Shown in pieces: positions 33,293 to 50,795 of a stretch of 64,000 nt of DNA. The notes under the pieces were generated by a model. It ran no database searches. It had not been told where the DNA came from and saw nothing but the letters and a program-made list of their open reading frames with translations. A program made the translations under genes and the position numbers. This DNA is from Methanomicrobium sp. W14 (GTDB lineage Archaea; Halobacteriota; Methanomicrobia; Methanomicrobiales; Methanomicrobiaceae), in assembly GCF_017875315.1 (NCBI RefSeq), contig NZ_JAGGMM010000003.1, forward strand, positions 248,001-312,000, read 5' to 3'. Position 1 is the stretch's first letter. Each line of letters begins with the position of its first letter.

Positions 33293-34687
33293 TTAGTGGT
33301 GGAAGCTTGTACCCGTCTTTTCGTCATGAACGGGCACGGACTGTTTTTCAAGGACTTTGAGCTGTCTTTTCAGGTCCTCGAGAAACATATCCGCAAGGTC
33401 GCAGGAAAATCCACGTCTTACGACAATCCTTAAAACCGCAAGGTCTTTGCAGTTTTCAGGGAAAGTGTACGCAGGAATGAGCCAGCCGCGTTCACGCATC
33501 TTGTTGGATACATCAAACACAGTGTAATTTTTTATACTGTCATTTAATTTGAACGCAAACACAGGCAGTTCGTCTCCTCTGGTCACAAGTTCGAAAGGAC
33601 CGAGTTTTTCTATTTCCGACGAGAGGAACAGTGCAATATCCCTTGCATACTGCTGGACTTTTTTGTATCCCTCCCTTCCGAGACGCAGGAAATTGTAATA
33701 CTGAAGGACTATCTGTGAACCGGGCCTTGAGAAGTTAAGCGCGAAAGTCGGCATGTTCGAGCCGAGATAATTTACGTAGAATATCAGATCCTCAGGCAGT
33801 GCCTCCGCATTGCGCCATATGACCCAGCCTACCCCGGGATATACCAGACCATACTTGTGGCCTGACGTGTTTATGGATGCGACCCTCGGGATCCTGAAGT
33901 CCCAGATTAAACCGGGGTCAAGGAAAGGAGCTATCATTCCTCCTGATGCGGCGTCGACATGCACAGGTATGTCAAGACCTGTCTTTTCCTGGAATTTGTC
34001 AAGTGCCTGGCATATTTCAAGGACGGGCTCGTATGAACCGTCGAAAGTCGAGCCGAGAATTGCAATGACACCTATAGTGTTCTCGTCGCAGAGCTTTACA
34101 GCCTCTTCTGCCGTTAAATGATAACGCCCCTTCTCCATGGGGACAAGACGCATCTCTACGTCCCAGTAGTTTGCGAATTTCTCCCAGCAGACCTGAACGT
34201 TTATCCCCATGACGATATTCGGTCTGTCAACGGGCTTCCCTTCGGCCTTTCTTTTGTGCTGCCATCTCCTTTTCATCGATATTCCGCCGAGCATCGCGGC
34301 TTCGCTTGACCCGGTGGTGGAGCACCCTGTCGCCTGTTCAAGGTCGGGTGCATTCCACAGGTGGCTTAACATGCTTACGCACCTCATTTCAAGGTCAGCC
34401 GTCTGCGGATACTCGTCCTTGTCTATCATGTTCTTGTCGAAGGTCTCGGAAGCAAGCTTTCTTGCCTGCGGCTCCATCCAGGTCCCTACGAATGTCGCCA
34501 GGTTAAGCCTTGCATTGCCGTCGAGCATGAGCTCGTCATGGACTATCTGGTATGCAAGGTCAGGCTCGATCTCGTTTTCAGGCAGCCTGTCCCTCGGGAT
34601 TGTCTCCATTCCCTCACTTGCAAAGATGGGGTCTATTATCAGGTCTTTTATGTGGGTTTTGGGCCCTTTCGGATGTTTCAGTCCCAT
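33293..34687 (-). CDS. gadB: Glutamate decarboxylase, bacterial GadB type
   Basis: A 464-residue group-II PLP decarboxylase. The PLP lysine is Lys278 (SINTSGHKYGLVYPGVGW); the cofactor-ring residues are in HVDAASGGMIAPF (about 243-255), and TFVGTWMEPQA (66-75) and STTGSSEAAML are substrate/phosphate-site segments. It has GadB length and motifs throughout, unlike the shorter archaeal MfnA tyrosine/aspartate decarboxylases. It ends GTSFHH; in E. coli GadB the penultimate histidine of a similar SFKHT tail caps the active site at neutral pH, so a pH switch may be kept. The start has GAGGTGA upstream. It is first in an operon with the antiporter. Confidence 0.92.
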   Translation of the reverse strand: MGLKHPKGPKTHIKDLIIDPIFASEGMETIPRDRLPENEIEPDLAYQIVHDELMLDGNARLNLATFVGTWMEPQARKLASETFDKNMIDKDEYPQTADLEMRCVSMLSHLWNAPDLEQATGCSTTGSSEAAMLGGISMKRRWQHKRKAEGKPVDRPNIVMGINVQVCWEKFANYWDVEMRLVPMEKGRYHLTAEEAVKLCDENTIGVIAILGSTFDGSYEPVLEICQALDKFQEKTGLDIPVHVDAASGGMIAPFLDPGLIWDFRIPRVASINTSGHKYGLVYPGVGWVIWRNAEALPEDLIFYVNYLGSNMPTFALNFSRPGSQIVLQYYNFLRLGREGYKKVQQYARDIALFLSSEIEKLGPFELVTRGDELPVFAFKLNDSIKNYTVFDVSNKMRERGWLIPAYTFPENCKDLAVLRIVVRRGFSCDLADMFLEDLKRQLKVLEKQSVPVHDEKTGTSFHH

Positions 34688-35018
34688 AATCTAGATTCAC
34701 CTCGTATAAAAACAGCTGCAAAACGCGGGATGACTTTTTGCCTGTAATTTCTCCTCTGCGCAAGAGCACTGAGAAATACCGCTACATCACAGACCAGAAT
34801 TTTTGCACACCACTTCCGCTTTGCCTGTCTGATAGTTCAATAGAAGAGTTATAAATAATTTGTGGGAACTAAAGTCTTTGCGGGCAGATAATTAAAAGCA
34901 GGATATGTTAACTATATATCTCAGGAATCCGGTCCTGGCAGGAAAAATCGGTAATTCCGGCTGGCAGTTATTATTGTTAAAAACTCATTTGGAAACCAGT
35001 TAAATGAACAGATGACCT
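34688..35018 (-). promoter_or_regulatory. Intergenic region with likely gadB promoter
   Basis: No gene is visible in these 331 nt. The best minus-strand TATA box is AATTATTTATAA at 34849-34860, which would give a gadB leader of about 130 nt. A second AT-rich stretch (CTATATATCTC) occurs near 34912. The distal part should contain the 3' end of the regulator transcript coming from 35019. No repeat or dyad symmetry stands out. Confidence 0.45.
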
Positions 35019-35840
35019 TCAGGCCGCTACAGCGTAACCTGAGACGATTTTTGCGAGGTCTTTTTTCAGGGAATCATTTATGCAATAACTGACACAGCCT
35101 CCATTCTGCTCCTTCGTTATGATATTGTCACGTACCAGCCCCGATATGTACCAGCTTACGGAAGGTGCGGATATTTTTACGGCAATGCTGAGTTCCTTTC
35201 TTGAGATTCCGGGATTTTCATTAATTGTTTCAAGAATCTTTCTTTCGGTCGGGTTTTTGGAATGCAGGTACAAAAGCTTCTCACCAGACGAATATGTGCC
35301 GGAATTCCTGAAATAACCTTTTCCTCTTGCTGTCTTTTTTGATACTACCATATTGTAGCTCAAAAGTTTTTTTACATGATATTCTACGTTTTTGTTCGTA
35401 AGTCCGGTATTCTTTTCAATCTCGCTTAAATGAACACCGGGACTGTTGACTATAGTTTCATATACCTGCCTGCGTGGTCCGTTTTCAAGGATTTCACTTT
35501 TTTTAAGCCGGGAAAGTCCTGTAAGGGCAGGAAGCTTACCTGAAAGGAGTAGTTTTGCCGGATACGCCAAGACTGCACCGGCACCTAAAAATGCGAGTAT
35601 TATGAGTACCGGAAGGGGGAGGTCTGAATATCCGGTCTGTTCAGGCTGCGGTCCGCTTAACAGGTTATCGTCACCGTCCATGGAGCCAAAATAAATATCT
35701 GTATAATCAGGCGATATGCCGTATGCCGGTTCAACTACATATCCTCCTGTCTCAATTGCCGACACACAGCTGATTAAACAGGAAATGGCAAAAAGGACTC
35801 CAAGAACCGTAATAATTAAAATGTTCTTTATTCCTTTCAT
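35019..35840 (-). CDS. Membrane-anchored transcription regulator with two winged-helix domains
   Basis: A 273-residue protein. It has an N-terminal signal/anchor helix (7-29), a short extracytoplasmic region of about 45 residues, a second membrane helix (LPLPVLIILAFLGAGAVLAYPAKLLL, about 74-99), then two winged-helix domains: about 120-185 (RRQVYETIVNSPGVHLSEIEKNTGLTNKNVEYHVKKL) and 195-260 (ERKILETINENPGISRKELSIAVKISAPSVSWYISGLV). This arrangement would let an outside signal reach the promoter directly. It is 11 nt downstream of an exported YWGDD-family gene and so shares its promoter; it is the natural candidate to control the shared element upstream of the exported genes at 35852-41744. 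Confidence 0.75.
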   Translation of the reverse strand: MKGIKNILIITVLGVLFAISCLISCVSAIETGGYVVEPAYGISPDYTDIYFGSMDGDDNLLSGPQPEQTGYSDLPLPVLIILAFLGAGAVLAYPAKLLLSGKLPALTGLSRLKKSEILENGPRRQVYETIVNSPGVHLSEIEKNTGLTNKNVEYHVKKLLSYNMVVSKKTARGKGYFRNSGTYSSGEKLLYLHSKNPTERKILETINENPGISRKELSIAVKISAPSVSWYISGLVRDNIITKEQNGGCVSYCINDSLKKDLAKIVSGYAVAA

Positions 35841-35851
35841 AATCCCCCCTC

Positions 35852-36565
35852 CTAGTAGAATAAAAGCACAAAGTGCTGTTTTTTATCGGTCTTATCAGCC
35901 TGAACCACTGCATACCATTCCCCGCTTTCTATACCTTCCGGCCTTGATATTCTGAGAAAAATTCTGCCGTTTACTACACCGTCGCTGTCATCCGAATACG
36001 GACCCATCATGCCGTCCGGCGAGAATATCGTAATTTTCAACTCGCTCCCGGAATCCATCCAGTTGAGATCGCAGGTGAAATTTTCGATTCCTTCAGGCAT
36101 CGTCTTGTAGAAAGGAACTGATTCTCCCTCCTCAACCGAATTTTTCATGTAGCCGAGGATGACATATCCGTCCTTTCCGATTAGTGTGGATTCCAGGCCG
36201 TAAATCTCTTTTTCTGACCTGTTGAGACTGCTTAGGTTTACCGGTCCGTTCTCGTCCCAGAAATTTGCACCATGGGAAAGCTCAGGGTAATCGTCTCCCC
36301 AGTACTTCTGCCTGCTGCAGAAATCCCTGAACTCCTCATCTGTCATACTTTTTTTCAGGGCACCAAGGGTATCGGGGTCGGTCATAGAAAGAAACTCCCC
36401 GTTTGTGATATTTTCACCGTACAGCTCGTTTATGAGACTTATTCTTGAATCATCGGTGATTGTGCTGTTTTCCGCTGAAACAGCCTGCGAGACAAAAAAG
36501 ACAAGCAAAACTGATGAAAAGGCCATAAATACCCATTTCATCTCAGGACTTCTTTTTTTAAGCAT
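35852..36565 (-). CDS. Exported protein of the YWGDD/WDENGPV family (paralogue 1)
   Basis: A 237-residue protein with a signal peptide (about 10-31). Residues 40-120 carry a block shared with two neighbours: LINELYGENITNGEFLS, EEFRDFCSRQKYWGDDYPELSHGANFWDENGPVNL. After it comes a short YGLESTLIGKDGYVILGY strand pair, also shared in pattern, then a private beta-rich domain (residues about 135-237) that looks like a pre-peptidase/jelly-roll C-terminal module (GRIFLRISRPEGIESGEWYAVVQ). No known family is recognised. It is first of a two-gene operon with the membrane regulator and has the shared promoter element upstream (36707-36727, degenerate copy). Confidence 0.65.
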   Translation of the reverse strand: MLKKRSPEMKWVFMAFSSVLLVFFVSQAVSAENSTITDDSRISLINELYGENITNGEFLSMTDPDTLGALKKSMTDEEFRDFCSRQKYWGDDYPELSHGANFWDENGPVNLSSLNRSEKEIYGLESTLIGKDGYVILGYMKNSVEEGESVPFYKTMPEGIENFTCDLNWMDSGSELKITIFSPDGMMGPYSDDSDGVVNGRIFLRISRPEGIESGEWYAVVQADKTDKKQHFVLLFY

Positions 36566-36706
36566 ATTTTATGCCTCTCAGTTCAGAATTTTTTTGCATC
36601 AGTCAAAATTTTTGGATTTTTTACTTCTTCAGGCCGTCCAATACGGGGATAAATACTTACAGCAGGTATTACGGGTGAGTAATATAATGTCCCTCATATA
36701 TACGTA

Positions 36707-36727
36707 TTATTCCAAAACCGTCAACGC
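36707..36727 (-). promoter_or_regulatory. Shared promoter element, degenerate copy (gene at 35852-36565)
   Basis: On the minus strand the 3' half GGAATAA of the shared element is kept, while the 5' half is diverged (GTTGACGGTTTT). A TATA box (CGTATATATGA, 36694-36704) follows 2-3 nt downstream, as in the other copies. Predicted leader about 105 nt. Confidence 0.5.
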
Positions 36728-36777
36728 ATAAACCCAAATCTTCCGGATTTTTTTAAATGAATTTTTTGGGATTTTTC

Positions 36778-37386
36778 TCAGAATATCCCAAGAAATTCAG
36801 AAATTGATCTTATTAGATCGATCTGTGTCCTTACAGGCGAACTGCTGTAAAGACCTGATGCAAGGGCATTCAGGAAGTTCTCTCCGCTTACATCCCCGTA
36901 TGCCTCAAGTCTTTCCATTGCACCCTTTGTGTCGTTGTCAAACCCCAATATGATATATCCGCTGTCATCGACGATAACTCCGCCAAGCCCGAGTCCCTCC
37001 TTCTCTTCGTCGCTGATTTCGTTAAGGTTAACCGGCCCGTTTTCGTCCCACACATTTGCACCGTAGGGAAGTTCAGGGTGGTCGTCTCCCCAGTACTTTT
37101 CAGTCTCCGAAAAATTTTTGAACTCTTCAGGAGTCATGTTGTCTTTCATCATTGTGTACTCTTCAGGAAATACCAGCTGCCAGAACTCTCCCTGGGTCAT
37201 CTTCTGTCCGTATATCTCATTTATCAGTTCAAGCTGGCTTTCGTTTGCATGGGCTGACACGGCATATGCACCTGCAACTCCGGCCATCCCGCACACAATT
37301 ATCAGAACAGACAGGACAGCCGGTATACCGGCTGATGTCAGCAATTCTTTTTTTTCATTTTTTTCCTCTTTCATTACTGTTTTCAT
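36778..37386 (-). CDS. Exported protein of the YWGDD/WDENGPV family (paralogue 2)
   Basis: A 202-residue protein with a basic N-terminus and a signal/anchor helix (about 18-42). The shared block is ELINEIYGQKMTQGEFWQLVFPEEY, then MTPEEFKNFSETEKYWGDDHPELPYGANVWDENGPVNLNEI, then GLGLGGVIVDDSGYIILGF. The private C-terminus (about 150-202) is short and ends LIRSISEFLGIF. A strong AAGGAGG site precedes ATG 37386. It has its own promoter with the shared element at 37499-37519. Function unknown; it is likely extracytoplasmic. Confidence 0.65.
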   Translation of the reverse strand: MKTVMKEEKNEKKELLTSAGIPAVLSVLIIVCGMAGVAGAYAVSAHANESQLELINEIYGQKMTQGEFWQLVFPEEYTMMKDNMTPEEFKNFSETEKYWGDDHPELPYGANVWDENGPVNLNEISDEEKEGLGLGGVIVDDSGYIILGFDNDTKGAMERLEAYGDVSGENFLNALASGLYSSSPVRTQIDLIRSISEFLGIF

Positions 37387-37498
37387 CTAAATTCCTCCTT
37401 TATTTTTTATATTCTCCTTTTATTCAGGTCATGAATTACCTGCATGAAAAAAACACGTAATCCTTAAGGCTATAGTAGAACCGGAGCTTAAATATGCA

Positions 37499-37519
37499 TT
37501 ATTCCGAAAGTATCTACAC
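37499..37519 (-). promoter_or_regulatory. Shared promoter element (gene at 36778-37386)
   Basis: The minus strand reads GTGTAGATACTTTCGGAATA(A), directly followed by a TATA box (GCATATTTAAG, 37487-37497). The same core occurs upstream of the genes starting at 39004, 39979 and 40335. Position just upstream of TATA is typical for an archaeal activator site. Confidence 0.7.
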
Positions 37520-37564
37520 AAAAAGTCCGTATTAAAAAAATGGAACGGTTATTTTATTTTTCGT

Positions 37565-39004
37565 TTATTTTCGTCTCCGTGCTCCCCAAAAAACCACGGA
37601 CGTTATAAGAAGTGCCGCCAGTGAAACAAAAGGAGACAAAGGGCTTTCAGTACCCGGCAGGTTGCTGTTCCCTTCCCTGTTATTTCCGGTCTCTGTGGAA
37701 TTATCTGCATTCGGGTTAATAAACGGGTTAAGATCTACAAACCATATCTCGTATTTGTTCGGCTCATAACCGGGGTAATCCTTCGGGTATGCCCTTAAAA
37801 GAAGCTGACCGTTGTCAAACTCAATGATATCACCAACCTCAAATTCATCGTTTCCTGTTATATGAATCTCTTTTTTCATACCGTCCGGGATATGATACAG
37901 GTAAATATGACCGCTTTTTTTGTAGACCACATAATCACCGTCGACGGCATATGAGTAAAACCCGAATTTCTCAATGTTATCTTTCTCCCTGACCACATTC
38001 ATTTCACCAACCGGCTCATTTATTGTGTCTATGACAGTCTCCCTTAGTGTATTCAGATCGGTTACACAAAGTTCAGCCCATCCGTTTTCCCCGGAATTAT
38101 CGTAATCAGGAGACACTTCTTTTGACCAGATTAGCTTATCTCCTGAAAAACAGTCCTGGCTTACTGCCATCTCTCCTTCAGTGTACGAATAACCGGTTGA
38201 TGACGGGATGGTAACGGATTCAAAAGAATTTCCGGTAATATTTTTTGGAAGTCTGAAGACAGTTATCCCATCTTCAGGCTTCCTGACATTTTGGTGAGAA
38301 GAGAGAATGCATAAAGATAATGCGGCATTGTTATCACCAAACCCGATTATATTGTTAAGTGCCAGTCCACGGTTATCCAGAGTAATTATATTGCCTGTGT
38401 CACGCGAATAGACCCGTAAACAGTCCATATCAGAAAGTTCATCCATAAGAACAAGATCATCAAACGCCCTTAGATTAACGATATCATTCTCTCCATCAGA
38501 AATCTTTTCATAATTATTATCACTGTCAAGAGAGAACATGCCCTCAGTGAATGCACAAGTACCGTTGGGGGTAGTTGTGGAAGTTTGAAGGGAAAAATAA
38601 ACAATACCGTCTGAAATATCAACGGATTCTATTCCCATCTTATACGATATCCAGTCGTTGGCTTTTCTTTTTTCTCCGATTACCTTTGTGTCAAATGTTT
38701 TTGTTTCTTTAGTAGTGCTGTTCCAGATATAGACAAGCGGGTCTTCATATTTTCTGTACGCAACCTCTCCCATACTAAGTCCCATATAAGATGTATGATA
38801 AGCCGAAGGATAAGTGAGAATATTGCATGAATTCCCGTCAACATATGTGTATGGCGTATTTATTACGGAGGATTCTGCACTTACTACTGAAATTAAGGAA
38901 ACAGATACAAAAACTGTTACTATTAAATATATAAATATTTTGTAAAGAATATTCAAAAATCCACGACATCGGATTTTTTCATTAAATTCAAGTTCTATTG
39001 CCAT
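37565..39004 (-). CDS. Exported beta-propeller-like protein with C-terminal membrane anchor (paralogue A)
   Basis: A 479-residue protein with a signal helix (about 22-43) and repeated strand pairs of the TolB/propeller kind, e.g. AYRKYEDPLVYIWNSTTKETKTFD and VDGDYVVYKKSGHIYLYHIPDGMKKEI. A conserved block near 385-425 ends VDLNPFINPN, followed by a Ser/Asn/Gly-rich linker, TESPLSPF, a hydrophobic helix and RRRK. The end looks like a sorting signal of the archaeosortase kind (short motif - helix - basic cluster), though not a named class I can confirm. The TATA box at 39023-39036 predicts transcription starting at or next to the ATG, so the mRNA is probably leaderless. A close paralogue is encoded at 40335-41744. 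Confidence 0.7.
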   Translation of the reverse strand: MAIELEFNEKIRCRGFLNILYKIFIYLIVTVFVSVSLISVVSAESSVINTPYTYVDGNSCNILTYPSAYHTSYMGLSMGEVAYRKYEDPLVYIWNSTTKETKTFDTKVIGEKRKANDWISYKMGIESVDISDGIVYFSLQTSTTTPNGTCAFTEGMFSLDSDNNYEKISDGENDIVNLRAFDDLVLMDELSDMDCLRVYSRDTGNIITLDNRGLALNNIIGFGDNNAALSLCILSSHQNVRKPEDGITVFRLPKNITGNSFESVTIPSSTGYSYTEGEMAVSQDCFSGDKLIWSKEVSPDYDNSGENGWAELCVTDLNTLRETVIDTINEPVGEMNVVREKDNIEKFGFYSYAVDGDYVVYKKSGHIYLYHIPDGMKKEIHITGNDEFEVGDIIEFDNGQLLLRAYPKDYPGYEPNKYEIWFVDLNPFINPNADNSTETGNNREGNSNLPGTESPLSPFVSLAALLITSVVFWGARRRK

Positions 39005-39037
39005 GAACAGATAATTAATTTTGATATTATATACTGA

Positions 39038-39058
39038 TTTTTCCGAAAGTATCTACAC
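39038..39058 (-). promoter_or_regulatory. Shared promoter element (gene at 37565-39004)
   Basis: The minus strand reads GTGTAGATACTTTCGGAAAA, followed by the TATA-like CAGTATATAATATC. This copy differs from the consensus only at its 3' end (GGAAAAA for GGAATAA). Spacing to TATA matches the other copies. Confidence 0.7.
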
Positions 39059-39103
39059 AAAAAAGTGTTATTTGTCTTTTTTATGATTTAGAATAATAAA
39101 ATT

Positions 39104-39128
39104 AAAAAAAAGGAGACTTTGAGTCTCC
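39104..39128 (-). terminator. Hairpin terminator of the gene at 39199-39979
   Basis: GGAGACT and AGTCTCC (39112-39118 / 39122-39128) form a seven-pair stem with a three-base loop; on the minus strand it is followed by eight or nine T's. It lies about 70 nt after the TAA of the upstream gene. This is an unusually bacterial-looking intrinsic terminator for an archaeon. Confidence 0.7.
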
Positions 39129-39198
39129 CCCATTACAATATTTATAGATTTGATCAAGAAAGGTGGCACTTAATGCAACACCAATTCATTACAGATAT

Positions 39199-39979
39199 CT
39201 AGTTATATGGCCACAGTCTCCCGGGTGACCATGTATACGTTGTAAGATCCGGATTTGTTGATGTTCCAATAACTTTTGATTGGTATAAAGTGCCACTTTG
39301 CGGATTTGAATAGGAATTTGAAACAGTTACTGTGTGACCTTTATTTCCATAATTCACATCATAACCTACTCTAGTACCATCTCCATACAGTTCAATTGTT
39401 ACAGTCAATTCTGTAGAGCTGGTATATCCTGCAACTCTTCCTGTACCACTATAGACTATTGAAGATCCCTTTCTCCTAAGATTATCTGCACATAAAACAA
39501 TCCCACTCTTTCTACCCAAAAGTAGGCATAATCTATTTACAGTAAACTCTGCATCCTGATTTGCTCCCTTAATGACATATCCACTCTTATCTATATTCTG
39601 GTTTTTAAGACCATAAATACTAGTTTCTCCGTTTTTAATTGATCTAAGTGAAACAGGACCGTTTTCGTCCCATACATTTGCCCCGTATGGAAGCTCGGGA
39701 TGGTCATCTCCCCAATATTTTTTCATCGCTGAAAAGTTTTCAAACTCTTCTGCAGTCAGGTTTTCCTTTAACATTGCATATTCTTCCGGGAAAACCTGCT
39801 CCCAAAACTCTCCTTCGGTCATGTCTTGGCCATATATATCATCAATTTCTTTAAGCTGGCTTTCATTTGCATGTGCCGATATGGAGTATGCACTTGCAAC
39901 CCCCGTTCCTGCTGCCAGCAGCAGAAGAAGACAAACAGCAAAATGAAAATTTGATTGTTTTCGCGTTCATTTTTGTCAT
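39199..39979 (-). pseudogene. Exported YWGDD/WDENGPV family protein (paralogue 3), frameshifted in the signal peptide
   Basis: The long open part (from 39822, and readable in frame back to about 39945) encodes FAVCLLLLLAAGTGVASAYS as a signal core, then ANESQLKEIDDIYGQDMTEGEFWEQVFPEEY and EFENFSAMKKYWGDDHPELPYGANVWDENGPV, nearly identical in layout to paralogue 2. The private C-terminus is beta-rich (TVTIELYGDGTRVGYDVNYGNKG, then VSNSYSNPQSGTLYQSKVIG) and could be an adhesive or binding module. The natural starts ATG 39979/39970 (MTKMNAKTIK) are one base out of frame with the signal core; the shift falls in the A/T-rich stretch near 39945-39960. It may be a real lesion, a switchable tract or a read error. 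Confidence 0.6.
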
Positions 39980-40231
39980 CTTTTTTTTATCTTGCCGTAT
40001 ATCACTAAATCAGACGTTTTGATCAATTCCCGGCTGCTAATTATGGTTTCCCTGTATTCATATGATTCAGATTTATCGGCATTGGTATGAATCACACCTG
40101 TGGCTGAGGGGCTTTGTTTCATTAAACTAAACCCACGCAGACTATGAATTTGCATAAAAATCGAAGTTTTTATGTGCAGTGCCGGGCATGCGGTCCACGT
40201 AGTTGCAATAAACCGTATTATTTGATAAGCA

Positions 40232-40252
40232 TTATTCCGAAAGCATCTACAT
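40232..40252 (-). promoter_or_regulatory. Shared promoter element (gene at 39199-39979)
   Basis: The minus strand reads ATGTAGATGCTTTCGGAATA(A), two changes from the consensus. An AT-rich CAAATAATA follows about 10 nt on. The leader to the first ATG would be about 215 nt, the longest of the group; no gene is seen in 39980-40231. The element is back-to-back with the copy at 40274-40294. Confidence 0.6.
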
Positions 40253-40273
40253 GAAACTAAAAGATACATTTTT

Positions 40274-40294
40274 GTGTAGATACTTTTGGAATAA
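40274..40294 (+). promoter_or_regulatory. Shared promoter element (gene at 40335-41744)
   Basis: The plus strand reads GTGTAGATACTTTTGGAATA(A), followed by the TATA box CATATAAAAAG (40299-40309). Together with the inverted copy at 40232-40252 this makes a divergent, mirror-image promoter pair. Confidence 0.7.
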
Positions 40295-40334
40295 ACAGCA
40301 TATAAAAAGATGAATGATTATTCCCAGAATGATG

Positions 40335-41744
40335 ATGGTGTCTGAATTTCATGAAAAATATAGTGCCATAGGTGGGATACACCGCACTTTCAATATTTTC
40401 ATATTCTCAATATTTGTAGTCCTGATATCTGTATCCTCAATCTCAATAGTTAGCGCAGAAGAGTGCCAGATAATTACTACCAGTTATACATACATTGACG
40501 GAAATGACGGTGTTTACTTTCCTAACCTGCCGTCTGATCTACCTGTTTCGCGGGCAGGACTAAGCAAAGGAGAAGTTGCATACAGGAAATATGCAGACCC
40601 GATTGTCTATATCTGGAACAGCACTACCAAAGAAACAAAAAAGTTTGATACAGGAATCATAGGAGAAAAAAGGCGGGCAAACGACTGGATTTCATACTGG
40701 ATGAATATAGAAAGCCTTGATATCTCAAATGGCGTTGCGTACTATTCTCTCTCAACAGAAATTACTTCTTCAAGTGGTACCGGCGGTGTCGCTGAAGGAA
40801 CATTCTCATTTGATGGAGAGAATAACGAGAAGGTTTCTGATCATTTTATGGAAAGAGTACTGGCCGACAATGATCTGGTCTTGTTTGAAGACTGCCTCCC
40901 ATATGAAGGAGAAGATATTATCCGGCCAGATCGCCTGAGAATATATTCTCACAGTAACGGGAATGTAATTACAATCGACAACCAGTCAAAAATTGATGAT
41001 CTACTTGGATTCGGGAATTATAAAGTCGCAACCCTTGCAGGAACTATAAATAAAAGACCCGGTGAACGAAATCATGATGACGGAATTGCAGTATATAACG
41101 TGAAACCGGCACTTTCAGGCGGAAAAGCTGAAAAAATCTCTATTAAAGGGGCTGAAGATATTTCTTCAGATGAAAGTGTGGCAATAGACCAGGACTGCTT
41201 TTCAGACAATTATTTCATCTGGTCTAAAGGTACAAAGACCACTAATAATAACGGTAATGATGAGTTTTATTGTACGCTCTATGCTACAGATCTTCAAAGC
41301 CTTGAAAACATTGTTTTAGACACAAAAGACGGAGACCTGGACTTCGGTCTTTACGCCTATTCAGTCGACGGTGATTATGTGGTCTACAAAAAAGACGGTC
41401 ATATTTACCTGTATCATATCCCGGACGGTATGAAAAAAGAGATTAATATAACAGGAAACGATGAATTTGAGGTCGGCGATATAGTCGAGTTCGACAAAGG
41501 TCAGCTTCTTTTAAGGGCATATCCTAAGGATTACCCGGGATATGAACCGGACAAATACGAAATATGGTTTGTAGACCTGAACCCTTTTATTAACCCAAAT
41601 ACCATAAATTCAACGAAAATTAAAAGTAATGCGGAGATAGACAACAACCTGGCAGGCACTGAAAGTCCCATATCTCCTCTTGCTTCACTGGCCGCACTTC
41701 TTATAGTGTCGATAGTTTTTGCGAGAAATCCAAAAAGAAAATAA
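40335..41744 (+). CDS. Exported beta-propeller-like protein with C-terminal membrane anchor (paralogue B)
   Basis: A 469-residue paralogue of the 37565-39004 product. Shared blocks include SKGEVAYRKYADPIVYIWNS, IGEKRRANDWISYWMNIESLDIS and VDGDYVVYKKDGHIYLYHIPDGMKKEINITGNDEFEVGDIVEFDKGQLLLRAYPKDYPGYEPDKYEIWFVDLNPF; the middle is more diverged. It ends TESPISPLASLAALLIVSIVFARNPKRK, again motif-helix-basic tail. The frame is open from 40314, but the TATA box at 40299-40309 puts the transcript start near 40326-40334, so ATG 40335 (MVSEFHEK, aligned with MAIELEFNEK of the paralogue) is the better start, nearly leaderless. Confidence 0.7.
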   Translation: MVSEFHEKYSAIGGIHRTFNIFIFSIFVVLISVSSISIVSAEECQIITTSYTYIDGNDGVYFPNLPSDLPVSRAGLSKGEVAYRKYADPIVYIWNSTTKETKKFDTGIIGEKRRANDWISYWMNIESLDISNGVAYYSLSTEITSSSGTGGVAEGTFSFDGENNEKVSDHFMERVLADNDLVLFEDCLPYEGEDIIRPDRLRIYSHSNGNVITIDNQSKIDDLLGFGNYKVATLAGTINKRPGERNHDDGIAVYNVKPALSGGKAEKISIKGAEDISSDESVAIDQDCFSDNYFIWSKGTKTTNNNGNDEFYCTLYATDLQSLENIVLDTKDGDLDFGLYAYSVDGDYVVYKKDGHIYLYHIPDGMKKEINITGNDEFEVGDIVEFDKGQLLLRAYPKDYPGYEPDKYEIWFVDLNPFINPNTINSTKIKSNAEIDNNLAGTESPISPLASLAALLIVSIVFARNPKRK

Positions 41745-41861
41745 ATAAAACCAAAAACTGCTTTTTTTAGTCAGAACAATATATGAGAATAAATCCGTGA
41801 AAAAAAAACAATTGACACCCTTTGCGACCTGAAAAGACAGGAGACTTGATTTTTGGGGGTA

Positions 41862-42545
41862 CTACCACCACCTGTTTTCATAAATCCGTTCCATAAGCTT
41901 CGGCCCGTCATTGTCGGGATTTTCCACACCGTTTCCGACAGGATATAACCCTGTTTTCTCCGAGGGATAAGGCTTTAGCAGAGAAAGAAAATCCTCATAT
42001 TCAGGGTTTATCCACTTCATTGCACCGCTTCCGCGTAATATTACAGGCATCCTGCCGTGGACCTCTTTCAGGACCCTGTTCGAAGCTGTTGTTACGATAC
42101 TGCATGAATAAGACCTGCCATTTGAAGAAGAGGACGATTTATAAACGCCTGCAAATGCAAACACCGGAGAGTCTGAAGCATAAATGTAAAACGGAGTCTT
42201 TCTCAGGCCCCCGGATTTCCACTCGTAAAAACCGTTGGCGGGAATAAGGCACCTCCCCGTATTCCCGAAAAGATATACGCCTTCTTTTAACGTATCGTCC
42301 CTTGTATTTATCACGGAATACTTTTTCTGCCCTGAAAAATCTGAATCTGGTTTTGGACTTTTATCAATACCCCATTTTGCGGACATTACATAATTTCCAT
42401 TATTATTTCCTTTATTGCTGCAGATGATGCATACGTTTTTTACGGGTGATATATTGTATGAAAGGTTTACCTGCGGGACCGGACCGCATACTCCGAAAAG
42501 GTCGCAGAAAAACTCCAAATCATAAAGGGCGAACCTTTTGCACAT
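41862..42545 (-). CDS. SRAP (HMCES/YedK) abasic-site processing protein
   Basis: A 227-residue SRAP-domain protein. Cys2 directly after the initiator Met (MCKRF) is the residue that bonds covalently to abasic sites in single-stranded DNA; the other family residues are visible as Asn80 (VINTRDDTL), Glu108 (IPANGFYEWK) and His163 (VHGRMPVIL). It protects abasic sites during replication by forming a stable DNA-protein link. Length matches E. coli YedK. It stands alone between the propeller gene and a decayed Fe-S gene. Confidence 0.93.
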   Translation of the reverse strand: MCKRFALYDLEFFCDLFGVCGPVPQVNLSYNISPVKNVCIICSNKGNNNGNYVMSAKWGIDKSPKPDSDFSGQKKYSVINTRDDTLKEGVYLFGNTGRCLIPANGFYEWKSGGLRKTPFYIYASDSPVFAFAGVYKSSSSSNGRSYSCSIVTTASNRVLKEVHGRMPVILRGSGAMKWINPEYEDFLSLLKPYPSEKTGLYPVGNGVENPDNDGPKLMERIYENRWW

Positions 42546-50225: not shown

Positions 50226-50795
50226 TCACGCCCCCACAAGCTTTCTGAACTTCTTTACACCCGATGTTGCATCATCCGACCATTCGTCGGCACCGGTGTA
50301 CTTCATGGTCTCTTTGTCTGTCCTTCCGCCGCCTACGACAATCTTTACCTTGTCGCGAAGACCGGCTTCCTTTATCTTCTCGACAATATTCTTCATTGAC
50401 TCGGTGGCTTCGGTCAGAAGTCCGCTTAATGCAACGATGTCAGGGTTGTTCTCCCTGATTGCGTTGATATATGAATCAGCAGGCTGGTCCACTCCAAGGT
50501 CTATGACCTTAAAGCCCTCAGCTTCAAGAAGAGCTATGATGATGTTCTTTCCGATGTCGTGAACATCTCCCTCGACAGTTCAGATAACAACTGTTCCGAT
50601 GTTCTCCATCTGGCTGTCGCCGAATACAGGCTTTAAAACATCCATAATCTGCGAAAGGATTTCACCTGTCATCATAAGGTCTGAAACAAAGAACCTTCCT
50701 TCCTCAAATCTTTTACATACGATATCCGTGGCTTTCCTTACATCCTCAATTATGAGTTTTGGGTCTTCCTTGGCTGCAATTCTCTGGTTTAAAAT
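50226..50795 (-). pseudogene. Corrinoid protein, 5'-truncated and with an in-frame TGA
   Basis: Homology to the 212-residue corrinoid proteins of the array begins at ILNQRIAAKEDPKLIIEDVRKATDIV (residue ~23 of intact copies) and runs to FRKLVGA. The first ~22 codons are replaced by unrelated AT-rich sequence. At 50580-50582 a GGA glycine codon (Gly94 of intact copies, GTVVI-G-TVEGD) has become TGA. The cobalamin motif DVHDIG is otherwise kept. It precedes the broken methyltransferase gene with the usual tight spacing, so the whole module is dead. No promoter/hairpin like those of the other modules is found upstream. Confidence 0.85.

Follow-up and report, generated by a model that had tools for sequence, protein, structure and literature searches.

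To our knowledge, very few membrane-anchored regulators of archaea have known operators and targets. The nearest working model for the system analyzed here is provided by ArnR and ArnR1 of Sulfolobus acidocaldarius, described as membrane-bound one-component activators of the archaellum promoter (PMC6396743), and the nearest euryarchaeal one by EarA of Methanococcus maripaludis, an activator with sites immediately upstream of the transcription factor B recognition element (BRE) and the TATA box (PMC5512572). According to a census of transmembrane transcription regulators (TTRs), Methanomicrobia are enriched in such proteins, which combine a DNA-binding domain and transmembrane (TM) helices in one chain; in the sections consulted, we found for its archaeal members neither operators nor a promoter grammar nor target genes (PMC10269533). 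Here we describe, in a stretch of 64,000 nucleotides from Methanomicrobium sp. W14 (contig NZ_JAGGMM010000003.1, positions 248,001 to 312,000; hereafter the window, whose numbering is used throughout), a bipartite element of 20 bp, TGTAGA-N7-GGAATAA, which extends the 19-base core searched below by one conserved base and is followed 4 nt on by a TATA box. This element is probably the private operator of the adjacent gene product, a predicted membrane-anchored one-component regulator (35019-35840), which most likely activates its own operon and the divergent operons for exported proteins. The locus ties one regulator to one exact word and a short list of targets.

The 35019 system belongs to neither of the two described systems. 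It resembles ArnR/ArnR1 in that a membrane-anchored DNA-binding regulator is linked to surface-structure genes with boxes just upstream of BRE/TATA; however, ArnR contains one N-terminal helix-turn-helix (HTH) domain, HAMP and sensor domains and two C-terminal TM helices (PMC6396743), whereas the predicted TM helices of 35019 are N-terminal, with two winged helices, and the protein has no Pfam match to HAMP. Furthermore, the ArnR boxes are inverted repeats TCGAC-N5-GTCGA needed in pairs (PMC6396743), in contrast to the asymmetric, bipartite element present once per promoter here. Given the reversed domain order, the two winged helices and the different operator, membership in the ArnR/ArnR1 group was rejected. 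EarA is the nearest euryarchaeal parallel, an activator bound directly upstream of BRE and TATA, but its sites, as described in the same source, are four 6-bp copies at one operon (PMC5512572), as opposed to a single 20-bp site per promoter in an exact TATA register, and 35019, unlike EarA, has predicted membrane helices; in the absence of a set of several 6-bp sites, assignment to this group was rejected as well. The 35019 protein does have the DNA-binding domain that defines a one-component TTR. It scores above the curated cut-offs of both PF13412 (HTH_24; 55.9 bits, cut-off 21.9) and PF24266 (HVO_0163_N; 48.8 bits, cut-off 31), which are domain families that imply neither an operator nor a function. 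In the literature searched, with subscription papers and preprints mostly outside its scope, we found no description of this element or of the family-wide operator code proposed below.

Element copies and their confinement to one locus

A search of the window for the 19-base core GTAGATACTTTCGGAATAA with up to three mismatches yielded four copies, at 37499-37517 (minus strand, no mismatches), 39038-39056 (minus, one mismatch), 40232-40250 (minus, one mismatch) and 40276-40294 (plus, one mismatch), compared to 0.01 expected by chance; none of 100 shuffled sequences gave four, so that a chance repeat is ruled out. A fifth copy at 36707 (minus), GTTGACGGTTTTGGAATAA, has five mismatches to the core but is considered real because orthologous copies, GTAGAC(G/T)GTTTCGGAATAA, precede the orthologous gene in three other genomes and the TATA register is kept. 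The 20-bp units and the genes of the locus are listed below (handles starting with C, G and L denote contigs, genomes and loci, respectively).

36707..36726, minus: copy 5 (degenerate), CGTTGACGGTTTTGGAATAA; promoter of the 35852-35019 operon; orthologous copies in L035, L036 and L037
37499..37518, minus: copy 1, TGTAGATACTTTCGGAATAA; TATA at 37494-37488; promoter of 36778-37386
39038..39057, minus: copy 2, TGTAGATACTTTCGGAAAAA; TATA at 39033-39027; start codon 39004 lies 29 nt past the TATA start, leaderless-type
40232..40251, minus: copy 3, TGTAGATGCTTTCGGAATAA; left half of the mirrored divergent promoter, then a long leader and the 39199 gene
40275..40294, plus: copy 4, TGTAGATACTTTTGGAATAA; right half of the divergent promoter; TATA at about 40299-40305; homologous start codon 40329
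35019..35840, minus: regulator (REG), 273 aa; N-terminal hydrophobic helix, ETGGYVVxPAY loop, second predicted TM helix, HVO_0163_N-type and HTH_24-type winged helices
35852..36565, minus: exported WGDD-family protein with a C-terminal beta-sandwich; first gene of the REG operon
36778..37386, minus: exported WGDD-family protein
37565..39004, minus: exported 479-aa protein with a C-terminal hydrophobic anchor; 52% identity to the 40314/40329 protein
39199..39822, minus: exported WGDD-family protein; in this assembly, the upstream export signal does not share the frame of the upstream ATG
40314..41744, plus: exported 476-aa paralogue of 37565-39004; start 40329 fits the homologues

The first-pass annotation had given the three minus-strand cores at these same positions and the plus-strand core 2 bases off, at 40274 instead of 40276. 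Its degenerate copy at 36707, its placement of each copy just upstream of a TATA-like box and of a gene for an exported protein (hydrophobic export-type N-termini are found on the genes behind all five promoters), and its mirror-image divergent promoter, in which copies 3 and 4 are separated by 23 nt, are all upheld. What comes in addition is that the element is bipartite and rigidly phased to the TATA box, and that the regulator belongs to a large family with elements of its own in the same register.

From the first T of TGTAGA to the start of the TATA box, the distance is 24 nt, without a single indel, in 40 of 40 promoter sites from 13 genomes, with T at +24 in 39, at +26 in 39 and at +28 in 36 of them. 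The 40 sites are the matches with at most two mismatches standing at promoters of the 13 loci; 19 other matches in the window, the 13 loci and L111-L113, all with two mismatches, were dropped from this set. All 40 stand in this fixed register beside a tandem winged-helix regulator, the combination by which we define a TATA-phased operator family.

The genome-wide motif search called for in the first-pass annotation shows that the motif is not scattered: across the six contigs (2.54 Mb) of this genome, the element is found at no promoter besides the five at 36.7-40.3 kb. The seven core matches with up to three mismatches comprise the four strong copies and three with three mismatches, two of which were read and lie within coding sequence, the third being at C1:1077703. 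Among 232 genomes of the order Methanomicrobiales, the exact pattern TGTAGA-N7-GGAATAA occurs at 52 sites in 27 genomes; by our own count, 31 of these are in the locus of the regulator, in 12 genomes, and the remaining 21 are dispersed, with no more than two in any one genome. The reversed pattern, used as a control, gives 13. A motif scattered over the genome was accordingly rejected. Given this confinement, in the present genome and 12 others, to a locus where the element precedes exported-protein operons including that of the regulator itself, the compact regulon proposed from the window alone is supported.

Element and regulator co-occur one to one. Orthologues of the regulator (E<1e-110; the next match is at 6.5e-51) are present in 14 of the 232 genomes, and the element is found in all 13 for which the promoter is assembled, exactly in 12 and with one mismatch in the thirteenth, G042, where a second copy has two mismatches. 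In the fourteenth genome, G190, the contig starts inside the WGDD gene, and the sole exact match elsewhere lies inside an open reading frame (ORF) of 1301 aa. The element-carrying genomes span four families of this one order, and when the regulator alignment was run against 84,980 species genomes, a set from which records near the window were possibly left out, seven loci were returned, all from Methanomicrobiales. A protein search with the WGDD alignment (E<1e-30) identified 13 of the 232 genomes, all of which contain the WGDD-regulator gene pair and the divergent promoter with mirrored copies; the 470-500-aa proteins were found, with alignment A3, in five genomes. The same cluster, with the mirrored divergent promoter, WGDD exported genes and 470-500-aa exported proteins, is present in G015, G016 and G018, where the last operon consists of one WGDD protein and the regulator. 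Identity to the window proteins is about 49-72% for the orthologues encoded in the four closest loci, and the element differs there at 0-3 of the 19 core bases; the degenerate copy of the window differs at five. The spacer of the mirrored pair varies in sequence and is constant in length, at 23 nt, in four genomes.

Two other interpretations of the element itself were discarded. A palindromic operator is suggested by the half-palindromes GTAnnTAC and TTCnGAA inside the element of the window, but the middle is not conserved across families; an RNA element is ruled out, given that no Rfam family was found in 34500-42000 and that the element stands upstream of the TATA box.

Candidate operators of paralogous regulators

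Relatives with tandem winged helices (E<1e-20) are encoded in 160 of the 232 genomes, and the present genome has nine family members (E<1e-10). A small ORF of 104-156 aa, in most cases with an export-type N-terminus, precedes the regulator in five of the eight other neighborhoods of this genome (L163, L166, L167, L169, L170). When 17 divergent intergenic regions were examined, the two best mirrored TATA-phased pairs both proved to adjoin regulator paralogues; as a positive control, the known pair was recovered in only 6 of the 13 loci of the window clade, so that this TATA pattern under-detects. Orthologues of the paralogue at C2:435240 have a different mirrored word, GATGATTYGGYCA, whose copies are exactly 33 bp apart in the six loci with both (G000, G016, G018/L182, G010/L174, G011 and G024); no such pair is in place at L176, and that pattern search found none at L172, L181, L183 and L178.

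Mirrored 20-mers, each with a TATA box at +24, were then scored in the 1.5 kb upstream of 101 non-redundant paralogue loci, which remained after removal of the loci of the window clade (bits >350) and of duplicates sharing their last 90 residues, and compared to 1010 shuffles. In this test, 41 loci scored above the 99% level of the null, where about one is expected, and 22 above the shuffle maximum, although some high scores look spurious (L160, L209, L211). The words group into clades, yet share one grammar in one register: a matrix derived from the 22 best loci exceeded the 99% null level in 54 of the other 79, compared to 3 of 73 real control upstream regions. The 73 are what remained after genes within 6 kb of any family member were removed; a first control set of 194 genes, which still included genes of regulator loci, had 14.9% above the threshold. 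Because the held-out loci are related to the training loci and are not independent events, these counts show presence and not effect size. A site at the 99% grammar level accompanies all eight other paralogues of the present genome, two of which (L157, L158) were in the training set. Of 19 loci drawn from other families of this phylum, 5 exceed the 99% level in the mirror test and 6 in the grammar test, with 8 doing so in at least one of the two.

In an exploratory, uncorrected Mantel analysis of 60 representatives, similarity of winged helix 2 correlated with similarity of the 5' half of the element (r=0.32, reached in 0 of 2000 permutations), whereas that of winged helix 1 did not (r=-0.02, p=0.62); both correlated with element positions 6-19. 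Given that the two domains share one phylogeny, their contrast is informative. In a likewise exploratory comparison of 22 non-redundant short gaps between mirrored copies, the values group at 12, 22-23, 33 and 44 nt, whole helical turns apart; gaps of 8 and 49 nt do not fit, and the 12-nt class dominates the helical-spacing test.

Taken at its widest, a proposition that we consider evenly balanced, this would amount to a family-wide operator code, in which a large set of membrane-anchored tandem winged-helix regulators from Methanomicrobiales, joined by certain relatives from other families of the phylum, have a private 20-bp word apiece for neighboring exported-protein genes. The words would follow a common grammar of approximately TGTARA - variable middle - AnAA - 4 nt - TATA, with the shared 5' half read by the second winged helix and the private middle by the first, mirrored words would lie whole helical turns apart, at gaps near 12, 23, 33 and 44 nt, and the regulators would be surface sensors that dock onto the TATA-binding protein (TBP) and transcription factor B (TFB) from the membrane. 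The comparison predicts operators for dozens more regulators, makes it testable which domain reads which half, and possibly offers a set of orthogonal archaeal promoters.

A second word followed by a TATA box, TGTAGAGAGTTGTGCAAAAA, was observed in two identical copies (L163 888 and 6342; L168 9388 and 14842), at 10.9 and 16.3 kb of C3 in the present genome, near two other regulator paralogues and ABC-transporter-like operons and about 600 nt from the next gene.

The regulator and its likely mode of action

The structural model of the 35019 protein contains helices at residues 2-24 and 76-99, a stretch of low confidence (22-67) and winged helices at 114-178 and 185-254 (pLDDT about 92). Both N-terminal helices are hydrophobic in 13 orthologues, although the first may instead be a signal that is cleaved off. 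Over their whole length, these orthologues share 31-58% identity with the protein of the window, and they keep ETGGY-V-P-Y in the loop between the helices. Foldseek and VIA searches with the regulator retrieved winged-helix folds and no convincing two-domain match. The loop motif ETGGYVV(E/Q/R)PAY is almost invariant across the four families, far above the conservation of the membrane helices; it is a candidate ligand- or partner-binding site, and the predicted topology would place it outside the cell.

In the mechanism that we favor, two helices would anchor the regulator in the membrane, the short loop exposed outside would sense a cue, and the two winged helices inside would bind TGTAGA-N7-GGAATAA directly upstream of, and probably touching, BRE/TATA of the five promoters. 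The bound regulator and TBP/TFB would then be held in one fixed geometry, in which the regulator most likely recruits or stabilizes TBP/TFB, turning on its own operon and the divergent surface-protein operons. At the mirrored copies, two regulator molecules may stand back to back between the divergent genes, possibly as a dimer. Because the copy at 36707 stands in front of the 35852-35019 operon, the regulator probably controls its own expression. The locus offers a testable system for a transcription factor acting from the membrane beside TBP/TFB.

Known archaeal activators typically bind just upstream of BRE and recruit TBP or TFB, whereas repressors cover the core promoter or sit downstream and can block the TBP/TFB sites (PMC5512572). 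The conserved end of the element, AATAA, is located 5-6 nt upstream of the TATA core, with the two invariant A's at +18/+19 in the expected BRE position. The same operator and regulator could therefore act in the opposite sense, with a repressor covering BRE and keeping TFB off until an outside signal releases it, and an element in front of the regulator's own operon is compatible with such autoregulation. Nevertheless, most of the element (TGTAGA and the middle) is upstream of BRE, and a TATA register kept in all 40 sites is more rigid than occlusion requires. Given this position and fixed register, activation is favored and is the more likely mode, while the overlap with BRE leaves room for repression, which we consider rather unlikely.

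Rigid spacing and overlap with the BRE position would also be expected of an extended core-promoter sequence read by a specialized TFB or another soluble factor, with the neighboring regulator acting elsewhere. A general BRE was rejected as the explanation of GGAATAA, which is hardly enriched before TATA boxes genome-wide (53 matches against 41 in the control), and A is present at +18/+19 in only 42% of 31 control promoters located more than 6 kb from any family member. This scarcity before other TATA boxes, the restriction of the element to one locus per genome and to regulator-bearing genomes, and the different elements of the paralogous regulators in the same register make a specialized factor very improbable. 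The five genes fall in two paralogous families, and their promoters could share ancestry, but the view that the copies are functionless left-overs of a recent gene and promoter duplication can be practically dismissed, given a near-invariant element beside strongly diverged proteins across four families, a mirrored-copy spacer that changes in sequence while keeping its 23 nt and the lack of any indel up to the TATA box.

Several observations weigh against an activating private operator and its extension to the paralogues. The co-occurrence and co-divergence of element and regulator could stem from inheritance of the locus as a block, the overlap of the 3' half with the expected BRE would suit a TFB-blocking repressor, and the copy at 36707 is degenerate. 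Among the paralogues, 60 of the 101 loci stay below the 99% level of the mirror test, 25 of the 79 held-out loci fail the grammar test, and L159 of the present genome has a weak site (13.4).

Exported proteins and minor features

The five genes behind the element belong to uncharacterized exported families that may represent outputs of methanogen surface sensing. At about 30 nt past the TATA start, the start codons 39004 and 40329 are in keeping with leaderless transcripts, and longer leaders precede the 36778, 35852 and 39199 genes. The proteins encoded by the last three have no Pfam match, and assignment of the WGDD proteins to an enzyme family was rejected on this ground. In the model of the 35852 protein (pLDDT only 72), the C-terminal beta-sandwich resembles the C-terminal domains of subtilases. 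The 37565 protein has a weak Pfam match to Amidase_5 (22.3 bits, cut-off 21; residues 117-172).

At 39823-39990 (minus), the export signal of the 39199 gene is in another frame than the upstream ATG, and copies in other genomes are intact, so that the frame break reflects either a pseudogene or an assembly error. Upstream of this gene, at 39976-40200 (minus), is a leader of about 215-250 nt whose conservation extends to three other genomes, with a block around CGCAGGTGTGATTCACACC; it has no Rfam match, and RNAalifold gave 38 pairs, 7 of them changed on both sides, from four sequences of which two are nearly identical. In L036 (7003-12681; G016), the gene for the 470-500-aa exported protein is present in four tandem copies with overlapping ORF ends; just two of these copies are preceded by the element. 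At L112 4295, 8157 and 10334 (G018, C1 2.19 Mb), the N-terminal WGDD region has three relatives in tandem, accompanied by a repeated TGCCGAGGTGGCCGGAATAA behind which no TATA box stands. Finally, the last quarter of the window contains a dispersed repeat, four identical 20-mers ATCTGGCTGTCGCCGAATAC at 50608, 58072, 60383 and 62804 (plus), each followed by NGGCTTTAAAAC.

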